This document shows, piece after piece, positions 7,737 through 51,928 of a stretch of DNA of 64,000 bases. The stretch is from Filosporella fistucella. Taxonomy: Eukaryota; Ascomycota; Leotiomycetes; Helotiales. The notes beneath the pieces were generated by a model. It did no database searches. It worked only from the letters and a program-made list of their open reading frames with translations, and was not told where the DNA came from. Both the position numbers and the translations under genes were made by a program. Every line of letters starts with the position of its first letter. Position 1 is the stretch's first letter. The stretch is taken from the NCBI GenBank assembly GCA_030077755.1, contig JAQJZZ010000012.1, positions 1,364,001-1,428,000 of the forward strand, written 5' to 3'.

Positions 7737-8882
7737 TCATAGATCAGTGTAAATTGCCACTCTTCCTTGAATACCGTCCCAAACCTGTAGCCATACCCAA
7801 GATCTACCAGCTTCTCCCCATAAAATTCCGAACGGATCGGAACTTATCTCAAACTTCCCATCCCGAACACCTTGCTGAGCTATATCCGGAGTCGCTTGAC
7901 AGAGGAAGTGATCTCTCTGTGGTCTCTCGAGGGCTAATGCATTCCCTGTAATTCCATGGCAGATGTTGGGTTCCTTGGTCAAGAGCCCTCGCTCCCAGAT
8001 GATTTTCCTCCCACTGGCTATCGCTTCATTGATCTTATTTTGTAGTGTAGGGAAATATTGCTTGATGGCAAGAAGGGACAGAACAAAACCTGGTGCTCCA
8101 TGGCAAAAGTGCACAAGTCCAAGATCTTTTCCCTCAATCACTGGCCAATTTCCATCTGCGCCTTGTAAAGTGAGAAGCGATAAAAGTTTGCTTTCCAGCC
8201 TCTCTGCATAGGATTGGTCGCACAGAACGATCTGGGTGATGATGCCAATCTCGCCGTGAACAGTACCTAAATACTGGCGATTACTCCATACCCAAGGCTG
8301 CTGAGGGAGAATATCTTCGATCAGGGTTGTGATCACTTGGCTAATGGACCGAGCAAGCCTAGGGTGTGACTTTCGCATTATTCGTAGCAAGTAGAGCGCG
8401 CCTGCTCGCCCCTTTAGCCATTCGCACCAAGTTGGATCGACATCTAGACTTTGAAGTGCCTCTAAAACTTTGTTTGCGTAGGTTTCGTCTTGATAAAAGC
8501 AGGCTTTGAGGGTATTGAAAGACAAGTACTCATTCGCTACCCCACACCCAGTATGGAGCGACGGTGGCACGTCATCCTGACCGAGCTCAAGGTATGCTTC
8601 GCACCAGTGATCCGGTAGCTTCCCCTCGAGTTTTAGTTCGGGATGTGTTTCATAGAGCCTCCAAAATAGGTACGCGACAGATGTAGGTCCGATGAACAAT
8701 CCCTTATACACTTGATCTCGGAATGGCGACGGCCATGGAAGAACTGGAGGACAATCACGCAATATCCGTGAAGCCGATTGAACCAAATGCAGCTTGGGAT
8801 CCTGTATTTGAAGTAACGTCGTTTCTGTATTTGGAAAGAATCGTTTCTCAGGCTTGGATATCTGAGATGGATCGATGGCCAT
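7737..8882 (-). CDS. LanC-like (LANCL) zinc protein, stand-alone
   Basis: Intronless gene of 381 residues, close to the usual LANCL/LanC length (about 400). LanC proteins are alpha/alpha toroids holding one zinc. Bacterial members cyclise lanthipeptides; animal LANCL proteins are reported to add glutathione to dehydroamino acids in damaged proteins. The zinc ligands are visible: Cys260 in the FCHGAPG motif and Cys308-His309 in ICHGITGN, spaced like Cys276/Cys322/His323 of human LANCL1. Other signature pieces are GLFIGPTSVAYLF near residue 61, KGRAGALYLL near 157 and VHGEIGI at 208. The C-terminus holds DPFGILWGEAGRSWVWLQV, the final repeat of the toroid. No LanB, precursor peptide or peptidase gene is nearby, so a detoxification or signalling role like LANCL is more likely than lanthipeptide synthesis. 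The ATG at 8882 is the only Met opening this frame. Confidence 0.88.
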   Translation of the reverse strand: MAIDPSQISKPEKRFFPNTETTLLQIQDPKLHLVQSASRILRDCPPVLPWPSPFRDQVYKGLFIGPTSVAYLFWRLYETHPELKLEGKLPDHWCEAYLELGQDDVPPSLHTGCGVANEYLSFNTLKACFYQDETYANKVLEALQSLDVDPTWCEWLKGRAGALYLLRIMRKSHPRLARSISQVITTLIEDILPQQPWVWSNRQYLGTVHGEIGIITQIVLCDQSYAERLESKLLSLLTLQGADGNWPVIEGKDLGLVHFCHGAPGFVLSLLAIKQYFPTLQNKINEAIASGRKIIWERGLLTKEPNICHGITGNALALERPQRDHFLCQATPDIAQQGVRDGKFEISSDPFGILWGEAGRSWVWLQVWDGIQGRVAIYTDL

Positions 8883-36230: not shown

Positions 36231-37571
36231 CCGCAGAAAAAGTCCATGGGCAGCGATGGCAGAGTGAACGGTGAACATGGGTGGAAATAACGCCCTTGAG
36301 ACCCCCCCCCCAATACCCATGGGTCATGGCTTTCCACTCCGTCCTCCTGATCCAGTAAGGACAGTCTCCAATTCCCACGCTCTGCAGCTCTCGGGCCAGT
36401 GCTAAAGAGAACCGTCGTCTTTCCTGACCTGAAGCCCTGAGTGCTGAGTACTGTGTCCTAACCCCACTACTCAGACGGAGGTACTAACTAACCTCGACTC
36501 ACTCCCTCACCCAGACCATATCCACCTTAATCCACTCTGTCCGCCTTCCTCACCAATCCCCGACTCCCCTTCCCCCTTCCCAAGCCCACAATCTGCCACT
36601 TACAGCCTGACCAGACTCATCCCAGCTTAAGATCCCACCAGACTAGACCACCCAGAAACCATTCAGACCATTCAGACCACCGAAATCCAAACCCAAACTA
36701 CGTCGTACACCAGACCAGAATCTGTACTGTACCTCCGTCCTTCTTTCTGTAGCGAAGGTAACGCCCTGGAATCCCATCCCGACCAGCCTGCTTGCCTGCC
36801 ACACTCACTCCCACACCCTTCCCTGACCCAACACTACTCCCCAGCCCAGCCGGGAGGGTAGTAGTCAGCAAGATTCCTGCCTCCCCTCTCCTTCTCGTCC
36901 TCTTCTCTTCTTGTGATACCATTTCGAGTCTGTACTTTACTTCTCGCCAACCTCGACAACCGTTCTTCGTCAATACAGGACAAGATCAGGTCGACATCGA
37001 GCGAAGGAAGGATTTGGAGAGGAGTCCGATATCGAGTCAGAGTTGTTCATTATCGGCCGGCCACGCTTGTCGCACAGGCTACAGTACCAAGTGTCCCAAG
37101 GTGCATTTCAGCTGGATCAGTGGTGTGGTTTGGCTTCCAGGAATTAACACGGTCGTTCCGACTTTCACTTCTTCACCTCACGAACCTGCAACAGAGACAT
37201 CCGTTCGATATTTCTTCGCATCAGATTTGAGTCTTCCCCGTTGTGAATACAGGTCAATTCGAAACTTCGACAGGTGAGCATTGCTTCTTTCTCGTCGCTC
37301 CCTCTTACTCGCTGCCCGACTCGACGCTTGGGTCGTCGCTTCCCACCCAACCCAACCTCCACCCAAACCCATCAATTCGGGAAGGAAACTTTTTGACTTC
37401 CCGGCTCGCGAATTTCATCTGGGAACAGCCTAGGATCGTCAACATCAGAGACATTTACGAACCATCCTGTTCCTCGGGTCAACCTCAATTGTTCAATCGT
37501 TAATAATTCATTTCTGTAGACCTCATCATGTCCACTCAATCTGCCTACAAGGGCTTGACGTCCGAAACCAT

Positions 37572-37573
37572 TA
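37572..37573. repeat. TA target-site duplication, left copy
   Basis: TA directly before the left terminal repeat; matching TA at 38991-38992. TA duplication is the hallmark of Tc1/mariner insertion. Confidence 0.9.
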
Positions 37574-37647
37574 CGGAGGTACAGCCCATAAGTAAAGTAA
37601 TAGCGCTAGCAAGGGGGCCACCCTGGCCCAGCACCTTAAGCCTAATA
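37574..37647. repeat. left terminal inverted repeat, 74 bp
   Basis: Starts CGGAGGTACAGCCC and is identical, in inverse orientation, to 38917-38990 over 74 bases; the match ends at the next base. Contains a GC-rich inner palindrome-like stretch (GGGGGCCACCCTGGCCCAG). Confidence 0.97.
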
Positions 37648-37701
37648 AGGCATCACCCTCCACACAAGCCAAAATGTCAAAAACCTCATATTTATTAGCT
37701 A

Positions 37702-38811
37702 TTAGTACTTGGTAAAGAGTCCATTTGCATTAATAACCGCCTGGCACCTGTCTGGCATACTTCTAATTAATGCCTCAAACTCAAATTGTCCTACCGTCTC
37801 CCACGCCTCCTTCACAGCCCCCCTTAAAGCGTTATATGACATATTCTCAGGGTAATTATCTTGCAAGTAATTCTTCATAATATGCCATACTCTCTCTATT
37901 GGATTTAAGTCAGGAGAGTAAGGTGGCCAGAAGATTACTTCAATTCCACGCTCTAATAAGTCTTGTCTTGTATCTCCTGCAGCGTGTCCGGGTGCTCCAT
38001 CTTGCATAAGCTTTAAGTATATACCTTCTCGTCTTTGAAGCTCGATATAACCGTGTATTATCGGTACCGTGTGTGCACAATAGCTGTCTTGATTAATAGT
38101 GCCCCAATCCTTCTCCCAAAAGAAGCCTGGCCCTTTTGTATACCCGTGAAAGCAACCCCAAAACATCCAACCCTTCTTTCTTTGGTGCTTCTCGACAATA
38201 CAAGTCGGATCCCACTCCTCGCCTGCTCTACGCGTTACCCAAGTCCTTGTATGCCTTCCGCCAGTAATCCAAGTCTCGTCTGTCCAAAGAATCTCAAACC
38301 ATTGTGCCATTGTCCACTCGACGTGTTCTAAAGCCCACGCAAGGCGTAATTGTCGGTTTTTCTCTGAGATCGGTGGCTTTCGCATTGCTAGACGGCGGTG
38401 AAAGCCTTCGCGGAGTAAAGCAGACCGAATAGCTTGCTTCTTTACTCCAAAATCGAGTACTTCTGCAAGTTGTGCAAAAGACATCCGCCGGTTCTTCGTA
38501 GACGCGCAAACAAACTCGACAAGTTCTTCGATTTGAGCTTGAGTAAGCACTGGTGGCCGGCCAGAACGCTTTTGCGGAGTTGCCTTATTACAAGCAGTCC
38601 CTATTTGTCGAATAGAGAAGCCCTTAAACTTCTGGATCTGGCCATAGGACCAGCCAATCGAGTGTAAAAGCTGGCAATCGCGTCTTTGATCACGAGTAAG
38701 CTCTGGTGCCTTGGGCCGGCGGATTGGAGGGTGAGGAATAGGCCCTATAGGTGTATGCGGGCGCTCAGGAGAGCTTTGCGGATTGAGTACGAGGCCTAAG
38801 AAGTCTGACAT
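37702..38811 (-). CDS. Tc1/mariner transposase (DD34E)
   Basis: Cut-and-paste transposase, 369 residues from ATG 38811 (a TTG two codons earlier extends the frame but is unlikely). The N-terminal half holds the DNA-binding helix-turn-helix pair: LTRDQRRDCQLLHSIGWSYGQIQKF, then the GRPPVLTQAQ linker resembling the GRPR motif, then a second HTH. The catalytic triad is visible: Asp in LWTDETW, Asp in LMQDGAPGH, and Glu in PDLNPIERVW. There are 34 residues between the second Asp and the Glu (DD34E, Tc1 family). WPPYSPDLNPIE is the classic tail motif. No stop or frameshift is seen, so activity is plausible. It has its own upstream space inside the element (38812-38916) for a promoter. Antisense to the host gene. 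Confidence 0.96.
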   Translation of the reverse strand: MSDFLGLVLNPQSSPERPHTPIGPIPHPPIRRPKAPELTRDQRRDCQLLHSIGWSYGQIQKFKGFSIRQIGTACNKATPQKRSGRPPVLTQAQIEELVEFVCASTKNRRMSFAQLAEVLDFGVKKQAIRSALLREGFHRRLAMRKPPISEKNRQLRLAWALEHVEWTMAQWFEILWTDETWITGGRHTRTWVTRRAGEEWDPTCIVEKHQRKKGWMFWGCFHGYTKGPGFFWEKDWGTINQDSYCAHTVPIIHGYIELQRREGIYLKLMQDGAPGHAAGDTRQDLLERGIEVIFWPPYSPDLNPIERVWHIMKNYLQDNYPENMSYNALRGAVKEAWETVGQFEFEALIRSMPDRCQAVINANGLFTKY

Positions 38812-38916
38812 TGTCAATTAGGTGGAATAGAAGCTTCAAAATAGCCTAAAGCACGCGTAGTGAGTATAAAATCTATGGTGTTTTGATGCTTTTGAGCTGC
38901 TAACGCGCTGCTACTC

Positions 38917-38990
38917 TATTAGGCTTAAGGTGCTGGGCCAGGGTGGCCCCCTTGCTAGCGCTATTACTTTACTTATGGGCTGTACCTCCG
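38917..38990. repeat. right terminal inverted repeat, 74 bp
   Basis: Perfect inverted copy of 37574-37647, ending CCTCCG before TA at 38991. Confidence 0.97.
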
Positions 38991-40680
38991 TACTCGAGTA
39001 ACACGATCCGGAAGAAAGCTCACGTATCGTCTTTCCGTCATTCAACAGCCAGAGCGTGCCAGAGCATGTGGTTCAGGAGCAAAATGTAGGTTGCAATCGT
39101 CACAACTTTTGCCAGCATTCTAATCGTCCCCAGCATCTGCCGACCGAAGACCAGTCGACCCTCCTCCAGTTGTAGAACTTCGAATTTTTGAGGGTGAAGG
39201 AAAGGATTCCGAAGATGTGACATTTTCATACGCTGCCAACTTCTTCCTCTTTGCCACGCTCGAGGTCGCACGTCCAATGGCTCATATTCGTGGTCAAGCA
39301 CCGGCACCGGCTCCAGTGGTTCCAGTTCTGACAGGAATGCCCGTGTCCGGAATGGCATATTTGGATCGTCCAACCGAGGCCGGTTATTTCATCTTTCCTG
39401 ATCTTTCAGTTCGTCATGAAGGCCAATATCGCCTCAGCTTCAACCTGTACGAGGAGACCAAGAATCCCAAGGAGGACGGAGACCTAGAGTCGCCAAGAGA
39501 TAAGAAGATGCCCGGAGAACCAGAGAACCACGACGCCTCATTCGACTGGCGATTGGAGGTCAAATCTGCCTCGTTCTTAGTGTACAGTGCGAAGAAGTTC
39601 CCAGGTTTGGCAGAAAGTACTTCTCTCAGTCGCACCGTCGCTGAGCAGGGTTGCCGTGTCCGAATTCGTCGTGATGTTCGTATGAGAAGACGAGAGGAGG
39701 GCAAGACCGCTGGTGATTTTGAGGAACAACAACAACAGGATGAATATGCTCGCGTTGGCCGCAATCCCGAACAGGATCCATATCACGAAAGGTCTCGCTC
39801 AAATAGTGCTACAAGTGTTGGCCACCGAGGTGCTCCATACCCAGGAGACAATCGTGAAAGCTACATATCTCCTTCACCAGTCGGAGGCCAACCTGCACCA
39901 CATGGAGGCAACCTCAACTTCAACGACAATTTCAATCAGCAACAGAATCAATATCCTGCACCACCTCAGTTTGTTCAACCAGGACAACACTCTTACCCAC
40001 CACCATCAAACAATTTCCCACCAGCTCCTCCTCAATATCGACCCGCTCCACAGCAACCTCAACCCGCATACAACTATGATAGACAATATGCTCAACCCGC
40101 TCAGTCGTCTCCTCATCAACCCTATCCTCAACGAGAGCATCGTGAGTTTGAACAAGATTATCGCAGATCTTCCGTTGCTACAGGATATTCTCCTCCATTA
40201 CCACTTCCTCCACCACAATCAACTGCATTCCCTGCCGTTGATAGTAGACCACAATTTAATAGCGGTTTCCGCAGTCCTGCACCACAATTGGCACCACTCA
40301 AGATACTTGAAACCAAGTATCCAGGAATCCCTTCCCCAGCTGGTCCTCCTTCATCTGTCGGCCGCAGTGCTCCAATGTTGCATAGTCCGACATATGATCG
40401 CATTGGATCGCGTTCAAGTATATCTATCCCACTTGTTGCAGCACCTATTCCTGCTCAGCTGGAACCAATTCGAAGTGGTAATAAGAGACCATTTGATCGT
40501 TCGAATGCTTTCGATTCATCCTCAGCATCACAACCTTTGTATGATGGCATGCGTCCAAACAGCTCGAAAGAAGACGATTATCAGAACGACACAGAAGAAT
40601 CTGACGAACCTCAGGCGTTGATCTACAAGCGTGCAGGTGGTGAATTACAGTCTCGTGCACCGGCTTGTGCCTCTGGATAG

Positions 40681-47536: not shown

Positions 47537-50500
47537 TTATAAGACCTCGACAACGCGGTCCCGGATCTCATGATTCCGTATCGAGTCGATAAAAGCAGAT
47601 ACGCCATTCCAGATTTGAGGAACGCGGTTATAGAGCATTGCTAGAATGATGATGACGAGGAGAGGAATCTATTAGAGTTAGAATGGTAACTATTATAGGC
47701 AAGAAGAAAGAACGTACCCAAATGAAGAAGAGATTCCTATCCCTACTCAGCCTCTTCACCTTCTCTGCATGTGCCAACCTTAATTGATCTTGCTGTTCTC
47801 GGGTAATGGTATGTTCCTTGCCAATACGAACAGTATCAAGCTTCACTGGTCGCTTAGTCATAGTCGAGCTCTCAGCCATGGTTGAACTCTCTCCTACATC
47901 AAATAGTTCGGAGCATTTGTTGTCTGCTACGGCGTCAGCAGCAGCTTGAGTAGCTGATGCTCGCTTGGTATCGAGGTCTCGCTCTCCATGAGGGAAGATA
48001 TCTTCATATGCAGGAGGCGCTGCAGGAACAGTTCCAGAGAAAAGATCCCACCATTTGTAGTCTTGTTCTTTGGCACCATCTGGACGGTTGTTACCAACCA
48101 AGTTGCTGATACGACGTACCATAGGAGCGGTTGGGAGGTAAGCTTGGTAATCAGGTAAAGTGGGCATCTGTGGGAGATTCGGAAGGTTGAGATGCATCGT
48201 CTGTTGAATGTGCTGGATATGAGCGGTGAGTTGATCTCTGAAAGCAGTCATTGCCGCAGTTGGAGATGCGAGTCCAACAGGTGGACCGATTCCAGGTAGT
48301 TCCAGGACTGGATCCTTTTCATCGGCCAGCTCTTCTTGGCTGGAGATTTTCTGAGCACTTGGTCTTCTCGACCTCATCCAGAAAGCACCATCATGAGCTG
48401 CATCTGCATCTTCATCCTCATACTCCTTGTCATCATCACTGTCGTCGCTTGTATTGTATCGATCAGCAGCTGGAGGAGTTGCAGGTTCCCATAACGACCT
48501 CAATGATGTCGCACTGCTAGTTCTGCTTCTCAAAGACCCGCCACTGCGAGTTCTCGAGTGATGTTCAATGCGCCGAGTAGCACGTTGAACGTCGTCAGAA
48601 GTTGACATGTCGGAAGGAGTGTATCCCTGGAGACTTCGCACGGTAGGATCAGCACCACTAAGCATCAACCTCCTAACAATTTGAGGATGGTTGTGAAGGG
48701 CAGCAAAATGCATTGGTGTGAACCCTCCCTTGTCTCTCGGTTCAGGATTGGCTCCACGAGCAAGAAGGGCTGCAGCGAATCGATGAAGCCCAAGTGAACA
48801 TGCTAGATGAAGCATTGTCTGTCCAGAAGCTCTTCTAAGATTTAGACGAGGCATATACGGGCTGTCGTCAAGATCAATCAGATCCAAGCATCTTAAAAGT
48901 GTTGCCTCAACGTCGACACCAAAGGTAGCAGCATTGAAACCCGATACTTGACTAGAACTACCACCAGTCGGTGAAGGTCCTGCAGATCCACCCCACGATG
49001 AAGGTCCATCACCAACAATTCTTCTTGCCAGGTCACGGACGTCTTCCATTTTACCCGTCATCTTGTGATGTAAGACTGAAAGTGCAGTTCTAATAATCTG
49101 CTGCTCGTCATCATCGACGTATTTGAAGAAGGCGGTTTGTTTTGGGATTGGAGGTGCGGGGTAAGCTTGCATCTGCTGCTGCTGGTGTTGATGCTTGAAC
49201 GTAACTGCTACTGTTCCAGCGAAAGCTGAAGGGGGAAGGAGGCAAACAAGTGAAGTCTCTCCCCAGAAAGTAGTGGTTGTAGCTTTCGAATCTCCAAACA
49301 TCACTTCCAAGCCTTGGCAAAACCCACTACCAAGACAAGTGACCTCAATGCCACCAGCTTTCGGTCCCTCGTTGGGGATCAATTTATGAATCGTTGGCGG
49401 TCTGTGAGGGTTCAAGCTCAAAGGAATACCATATAGGCCATTTGCAACAGCTTGAGCGATTTGAGCTTGTTGCTGTTGATAGGCTTGAACTGTGTTTCTC
49501 AATCCATTAGGGCTTGGTACACGGCTTGGATGAGCCGAAGCTGGTGCAGAGTAAAGTTGGTGCATAGCCAAGTTGTCCATAGACTGCGAGCGATTACCAC
49601 TGTTAAAAAAGACCTGGTCGTTACTGTTTGGTGTAGGAGGGCCAGTGTTGTATTGGGCAGGGACGTTTGGAATTGTCGAAGGAGGCTGACCAAATTGTTG
49701 ATCGGCAGGAATTGGGAAGGATGTTAGATTAGGAGTAAATGGTGATGGAGCAGACGAAGTCGTCGCACTCATCCCACCAGTTGGAGGGCCCTGCATAGCA
49801 GAAATATCACCAGTCTCCAATCTAGTCATTGCCAATCCACTCGGAACTTTACTCGATCCACTGGCTTTTCTCTTCTTCGATGATGGACCAATTTGAGCCG
49901 AAGGTGAAGATTGCCTTGATAGGTTTCTTGGTGTCATAGTAGCTGAAGTCGTCTGAGAAGCTGTAACACTGGCAGGATTCGAGTACTGGACGTTGAAATT
50001 TCGTTGCATTGCTTGCAAGTCGGAACTCGAGTGTGAAAGTCGGAAAGGAGCCATAGCGCCAGTAGGGCCATTCATATCAAATGAAGCATCGAATGTCCCG
50101 GATCCAGCATAAATCTGGCCATCAGATCCTGAGGAATTCTGAGTCGCCAAAGTAGGGATGTTATGTGTCTTGTGGTCGTCAGTAATCATGATTGAAGACG
50201 TCATCTCTTGGGCAATCAAGCGATCTTGGTAGTCCTTGATAGTAAGAATAACTTGGAATCCAAGCTTCTCATTTTGATGCCGACAATAGCAAGCAATACG
50301 CATAGGCGCATCAACTTGCATTGCTCCTTCAGGCACGAAAGGCTCGGCTCGATCTCCAGTAGCCTCGTTAGAAGGCTGGCTAGTAGGTACCTGCCAGTCC
50401 TTAATCTCATGGGTGTTGAAGACAATCACACGTTTGGCTTCATCCTTATGCCACGATTCTTCCTCTTCAACCTTCTTCACCTTCTTTCGTGCTGCTCGCT

Positions 50501-51928
50501 TCCTTTCTCTGGTTATACACCCTGGACAGATCTTGACATCACCTCCGTTCAAAGGCTTATTCTCGTCGTCTTCCTCTGATCCACTATCTCCTGGTGATTC
50601 GACTTTAGTGGATTCTCCAGCTGCGGCTCTCTCGAAAGCTCGGCGACGATTCTCTGGATTCTGCATCGCACTAGTACAGACAAGTGTCGTATACAATTCC
50701 AAAGTATCTGGCGACCTTTCCGCAGACGGTTTAGCCAAAAGTTTAGGCTTTGATATTGTATGAGTAGGAAGATGCAATTTTGTGACACCCATTGGCATGG
50801 GGAAAAGAGTCATTTTGATAGGAATCTGGGTTTCCACTCGCGATTTTAGCGGTGTGGGGTGAACAGTCAAAATCGGTTTGTATGGAGCTCCCATGTTAAA
50901 CGCCTGTGGTGGGGTGATCCTCTGCATTGGTTGTGGGTTCAGTTGTGGCATTGGTGGTGGTATTCCATTATTCTGGTATCCTCCCATGTTTGTAGCCCAA
51001 TTCTGATTTTGTGGTCCTCCACCAAGCATGGTTCCACTCACAAACTCAACGCCAGTTCCAGGAGAAGGTGAATTATTAAAGAATGCTGAAGGTGAAGATT
51101 CTTGGCTCGTAATCATTGCAGATAGAGGGGAAGCCTCCCTAGAGGTTGTGGTTGTGAGGCCATTCATAGACTGAGTGACCGAATGTTGCTGAAATCATTA
51201 GTATAGAACAAAAACCGACATGTTGGACCTACCGAGTTCACCTTATTGTGATTCTTATACTTCGTTTTCATCATTGGAGAGTGTTTCCTCGGCGTATCGT
51301 ACTTAATCGTGGGCATCTCGGGAGAATCCATAGCTACCCCAAAAGGACTGGGACTGCTCGCGGCACTCTCAAAATCAAAATCATTCTCCATCGTCTTGTC
51401 GCTGAACTCAAAGTTGGTATTCATCGAAGAAGGATTGATGGTTCCATCGAAGTCTCCGTAAGCCGACGCATCATTTCCTGCGATCATATCTTCCACTTTC
51501 CAATCCCCCATCACGGTATCGTCATTCATCATGACGTCTCCTGAAGTCAGCGCTGACCTGGAAGAGTCAGAGCTGGACTTGCGTTTATATCCGGCAGATG
51601 AATCGGAGGCTGAGTCTTGATATGAACCGGCCGGGGAGGCAGTCGAAGGAGCAGAAAGCGATTGCTGTCTGGTGTCCAGCAGCGAATGCTGATCTGGTAG
51701 AGGAGATTTGTGACTTGCGGGATTAGGAGAGCCAAAATTAGTTAGGAACTGCGAATTATCCGTCGCAAAGTCTTCGTCTGCCAGAAAGAGGCCGGGACTG
51801 TTCGCTCCTTCCAGACTGGAATTGAAGAACTCGAAATCAGGGTCCGTATCGAGTCGTCCTGACATGTCCGAATCAAAGATGAATGGCGGCGAACTCGCAG
51901 AGTATACAGGCTCTGCCGTCGTCGGCAT
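47537..51928 (-). CDS. Spt23/Mga2-like membrane-tethered transcription regulator (IPT/TIG + ankyrin)
   Basis: Three exons: 51928-51233, 51188-47718, 47668-47537 (introns 44 and 49 nt), 1,432 residues. Yeast Spt23/Mga2 sit in the ER/nuclear membrane as inactive precursors, are cut by the proteasome and switch on OLE1 and hypoxic genes. Domain order: long Ser/Pro-rich N-terminus; conserved region with LTVHPTPLKSRVETQIPIKMTLFPMP and CPGCITRERKRAARKK; IPT/TIG domain (PTIHKLIPNEGPKAGGIEVTCLGSGF, near residue 860); two ankyrin repeats (GQTMLHLACSLGLHRFAAALLARGAN, GGFTPMHFAALHNHPQIVRRLMLSGADP); acidic stretch; C-terminal transmembrane helix. The third exon is essential: unspliced reading gives a wrong end at 47628, while splicing gives WIPLLVIIILAMLYNRVPQIWNG and stop at 47537. 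Start chosen at ATG 51928 (MPTTAEPVYSAS). Confidence 0.92.

Follow-up and report, generated by a model that had tools for sequence, protein, structure and literature searches.

A Tc1-type transposon interrupts coding exon 1 of the only veA gene found in an assembly of Filosporella fistucella, with likely loss of VeA function

The velvet gene veA governs light response and chemistry as a master regulator, and its closest described lesions are in Botrytis cinerea and Aspergillus nidulans. In B. cinerea T4, a stop codon lies in the veA orthologue bcvel1, and the strain produces conidia in light and dark and forms no sclerotia; one further truncated bcvel1 allele was reported among eight affected isolates of 70 tested (available sections of PMC3485325). 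The veA1 allele of A. nidulans carries a start-codon mutation, and its product lacks 36 residues (same sections of PMC3485325). In this study, we analysed a 64,000-nucleotide (nt) stretch of the genome of Filosporella fistucella (G000:C11:1364001-1428000), hereafter the window, in which a complete Tc1-type element lies inside the first coding exon of veA. Very probably, this is a young insertion into the only veA found in the assembly, and the allele has lost its function or nearly so.

The split veA gene consists of the following parts, in window positions:

37528..37573, plus strand: 5' part of veA coding exon 1; 15 codons and one further base, after which the frame enters the element and ends at TAG 37696
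38993..39085, plus strand: 3' part of veA coding exon 1; holds the beginning of the velvet domain and no in-frame ATG
39086..39133, plus strand: veA intron; 48 nt, GTAGGT...CTAAT...CAG, positioned manually to make its flanks fit SSADRR of relatives
39134..40680, plus strand: veA coding exon 2; remaining velvet domain and C-terminal region, with no stop before 40678

The veA ATG at 37528 is preceded by an in-frame stop at 37504, and the 15 veA codons left of the element end in SETI; in several relatives, residues such as ETIQ, ATIT, EIIT or ETMT directly precede an R.T motif. To the right of the element, the 30-residue piece encoded at 38995-39084 matched chain positions 22-51 of VeA 9i2s_A (expectation value (E) 3e-10), and 39217-40680 matched Velvet PF11754 in Pfam (E 5.9e-36). 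The velvet domain is divided between two exon pieces, each of them lying downstream of the element. These results demonstrated that both flanks of the element are veA, in the right order and orientation, and bore out the original prediction of family-conserved sequence on both sides of the join. The veA leader is long (36800-37520) and possibly contains an intron, with a donor-like sequence at 37274 and an acceptor-like one at 37519.

Among the solved chains listed, of which VelC is not one, the gene matched VeA (9i2s_A, E 4.9e-43) far better than VosA (2.8e-15) or VelB (3.5e-10). The best relative among the matches listed covered 99% of the 487-residue part of the protein at 52% identity, and the best-scoring VeA relatives, with the best 120 listed, were from Mollisiaceae and Acephala. 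In the split veA, RARACG comes after 36 residues, summed from the separate pieces; the median is 35 (quartiles 33-39) in the 56 of these 120 relatives that have both an initial methionine and the motif, the other 64, without one or both, having been set aside. An intact second veA, which had been named beforehand as evidence to the contrary, was looked for throughout the assembly (45.77 megabases, 19 contigs) and none was found: the 487-residue piece found itself and two weak matches at velvet paralogues. The velvet gene on contig C9 matched VelB alone, and that on C12 matched VelB about as well as VosA, and VeA less well; further velvet genes lie on C16 and C13. With its coding sequence interrupted and no second copy found in the assembly, the locus is a candidate natural velvet loss-of-function allele.

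The interrupting sequence comprises the following features:

37574..38990, minus strand: Tc1-type element; 1417 base pairs (bp), identical to five further copies found in the assembly
37572..37573, no strand: TA target site, left copy
38991..38992, no strand: TA target site, right copy
37574..37647, plus strand: left terminal inverted repeat; 74 bp, the same as the reverse complement of the right repeat
38917..38990, minus strand: right terminal inverted repeat; 74 bp
37702..38811, minus strand: transposase; 369 residues from ATG, uninterrupted, DD34E triad D178, D271, E306

Counting the TA, the inverted-repeat arms span 37572-37647 and 38917-38992 (76 nt, 100% complementary), and the insertion point is a TA in codons 15-16 of veA. 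The transposase carries the Pfam domains HTH_Tnp_Tc3_2 and DDE_3, and its D178, D271 and E306, numbered from the ATG, align with the catalytic residues of the Sleeping Beauty transposase 5cr4, with 34 residues between D271 and E306. The DD34E triad is the hallmark of the Tc1 family; the duplicated TA target, the terminal inverted repeats and the single transposase with helix-turn-helix (HTH) and DD34E regions place the element in that family. The closest transposase was a protein without an organism name (82% identity), and the best named one was from Podosphaera aphanis (74%), among 120 listed of 920 matches. The coordinates of element and gene agree with the original prediction of a complete Tc1/mariner element after codon 15 of the first coding exon. 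The 561-residue VeA expected on removing the element and one TA likewise agrees, by hand arithmetic, with piece lengths of 46 + 2 + 91 + 1544 nt, a figure taken from the separate pieces.

From the normal veA start, the frame runs for 56 codons, its stop lying within the element, and the first in-frame ATG beyond the insertion is at 39277..39279 (plus strand), within the velvet domain. No stop codon was found in the rest of veA downstream of the element before 40678, in keeping with the earlier statement that this part of the gene shows no secondary decay. We propose that a cut-and-paste element of the Tc1 type (DD34E) entered the single veA found in the assembly at a TA, so that translation from the normal start would stop within the element. 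Because the first downstream ATG lies within the velvet domain, a product restarted at 39277 would lack the beginning of the domain. The allele would then have little or no function, and on the evidence of the sequence VeA function has probably been lost. By analogy with bcvel1 of Botrytis, light-dependent control of development would be expected to be lost. Changed secondary metabolism would also be expected.

If translation began within the element or downstream of it, a shortened VeA with partial function might be made, as in A. nidulans veA1; we consider this quite improbable. From 38959 onwards, the frame crosses the right repeat into veA without a stop, and veA1 is itself described as lacking its first 36 residues (available sections of PMC3485325). 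However, the open stretch contains no ATG, its only codon among ATG, CTG, GTG and TTG being a CTG at 38980, and the first in-frame ATG is the one inside the velvet domain. Restart at the veA1 position was rejected: where 9i2s_A has Met at chain position 37, the split veA has an aligned Ile, as do 50 of the 56 relatives.

We found at least six full-length copies of the element on five contigs (C1, C3, C9, C11 and two on C16). The six represent one distinct sequence, identical throughout its 1417 bp, with TA at both ends in every case and six different flank pairs. Six identical copies are a known kind of cause of misjoins, and an artefact could place the element wrongly or reflect a mixed site, with most nuclei carrying an uninterrupted veA. 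Such an artefact is very unlikely: the flanks belong to the same gene in correct order and orientation, with TA on both sides. The six copies also have six different TA-ended flank pairs. A misjoin would hardly give this pattern; a mixed site is possible.

Certain points nevertheless weigh against loss of function by a young insertion. There may be a subpopulation without the insertion, an assembly error, or low-level expression of the gene, and an in-frame splice is possible, with 31 of 85 GT-AG pairs across the element keeping phase and 20 of the 85 also free of stops. Splicing that removes the element from the precursor messenger RNA as one very large intron, using sites within or next to the repeats and yielding near-normal VeA, is nonetheless highly improbable and was not adopted: a donor-like GAG/GTACAG lies 5 bases into the left repeat (window 37574-37600) and frame-keeping acceptors exist, but 31 of 85 is about the one third expected by chance, so that phase-keeping and open site pairs occur only at chance level, and the intron would be about 1.4 kilobases (kb) long, compared with the native veA intron of 48 nt. 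Fungal splicing disfavours introns of about 1.4 kb. Since the repeats are perfect, the GAG/GTACAG motif also faces inward from the other end of the element.

The absence of any difference across 6 x 1417 bases limits the burst of copies to about 3.5e-4 substitutions per site under a star phylogeny. With substitution rates between 1e-8 and 1e-9 per site and year, the burst would be younger than roughly 35,000 to 350,000 years, a bound that dates the burst and not the veA event and that assumes that the assembly did not even out the copies. The earlier view of a recent event therefore holds for the spread of the element, and the age bound does not extend to the veA insertion itself. Because the six copies are identical, the burst appears young and the element possibly mobile, and this identity suggests recent activity of the element. 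The veA insertion is probably young as well and could have arisen in nature or in culture; an origin in culture is possible alongside a natural one, and nothing was found to separate them. Since the element is intact and seems to have been active lately, veA might be switchable, excision in some nuclei giving sectors that differ in light response and chemistry, and the insertion would then be a reversible developmental switch instead of a dead allele. From the sequence available, we regard this as unlikely.

The flanks of the other five copies were covered to 1.5 kb on each side, and 10 of 40 flank frames were scanned. No evident exon crossed any of these five sites in this screen, a weak one in which the long-frame search missed the short veA exon itself. 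The sites have an SNZ-type and an ankyrin protein nearby, together with a match to a calcium exchanger that is weak (19.7 bits) and falls below its cut-off. A 243-bp non-autonomous deletion form (L028, G000:C3:1478768-1479010) has the ends of the veA element and flanking TA, with its left 41 bases 95% alike, and a repeat fragment of the element family lies on C4; both indicate that the family was present in the genome earlier. No diverged full-length copies of the element were found in the genome listing, the next transposase being 48% identical. A recent horizontal arrival of the element, with which the lack of diverged full-length copies would fit, was not adopted, as the 243-bp form and the C4 fragment are older traces. 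More distant Tc1-type transposases (L037-L052, 25-48% identical) are also present in the genome; two of them, L042 and L043, have 24 and 21 in-frame stops and GC contents of 0.39 and 0.37, resembling decay of the repeat-induced point mutation (RIP) type. The RIP indices of the element itself are mixed (TpA/ApT 1.19, second index 1.17) and were not used as a clock.

One neighbouring gene is informative:

47628..51167, minus strand: Mga2/Spt23-type gene, veA neighbour here and in several relatives

This gene lies 7 kb downstream of veA. Among the best 120 matches listed, its product shares 80% identity with the Mollisia scopiformis protein and 81% with the one from Stipitochalara longipes. Together with the VeA relatives, these matches place the host in Helotiales, near Mollisiaceae and Stipitochalara; among the best 120 listed for each of the two proteins, none was similar enough to come from the same species. 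In seven relatives, with listings judged by eye, the locus tags of VeA and Mga2 are within seven of each other, and this shared neighbourhood is a further reason to regard the gene as VeA and not VelB or VosA. There are exceptions: the two tags are far apart in one Pseudogymnoascus (V495), on contigs differing in size, and 364 apart in Monilinia vaccinii-corymbosi, where the contigs are equally long; in Mollisia scopiformis, Acephala macrosclerotiorum and Stipitochalara longipes, the tag numbers are also distant and the contigs equally long. Elsewhere in this fungal window, positions 7737-8882 encode a LanC-like protein (PF05147, E 8.4e-25).

If the allele is null, the light response, development and secondary metabolism of this strain should not be taken as typical of the species, and transposition would be added to the published point mutations in veA orthologues. 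For metabolite mining of this genome, a global regulator is probably off. The young burst of a Tc1-type element in the genome is a more general point.

No transposon insertion in veA or vel1 was found in the literature searched, which comprised titles and the beginnings of abstracts. In the available sections of PMC3485325, 'transposon' and 'transposable' occur only in the reference list, and those of PMC8914235 and PMC5711037 describe no such insertion. Natural truncating alleles of veA orthologues are already known, and the type of lesion, a transposon, is new as far as these searches reach. The element has in common with the Tc1 family its TA target, inverted repeats, HTH_Tnp_Tc3_2 and DDE_3 domains and DD34E triad, and Sleeping Beauty 5cr4 is its best sequence match among solved structures, yet a distant one (68.5 bits). 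As in veA1, a 5' lesion parts the normal start from the remaining protein; here, however, an insertion caused the break, and Ile stands in place of the aligned methionine. The bcvel1 alleles of B. cinerea are likewise natural truncating losses of a veA orthologue in Leotiomycetes (available sections of PMC3485325), whereas in F. fistucella a transposon cuts the first 15 codons off from the whole velvet domain.
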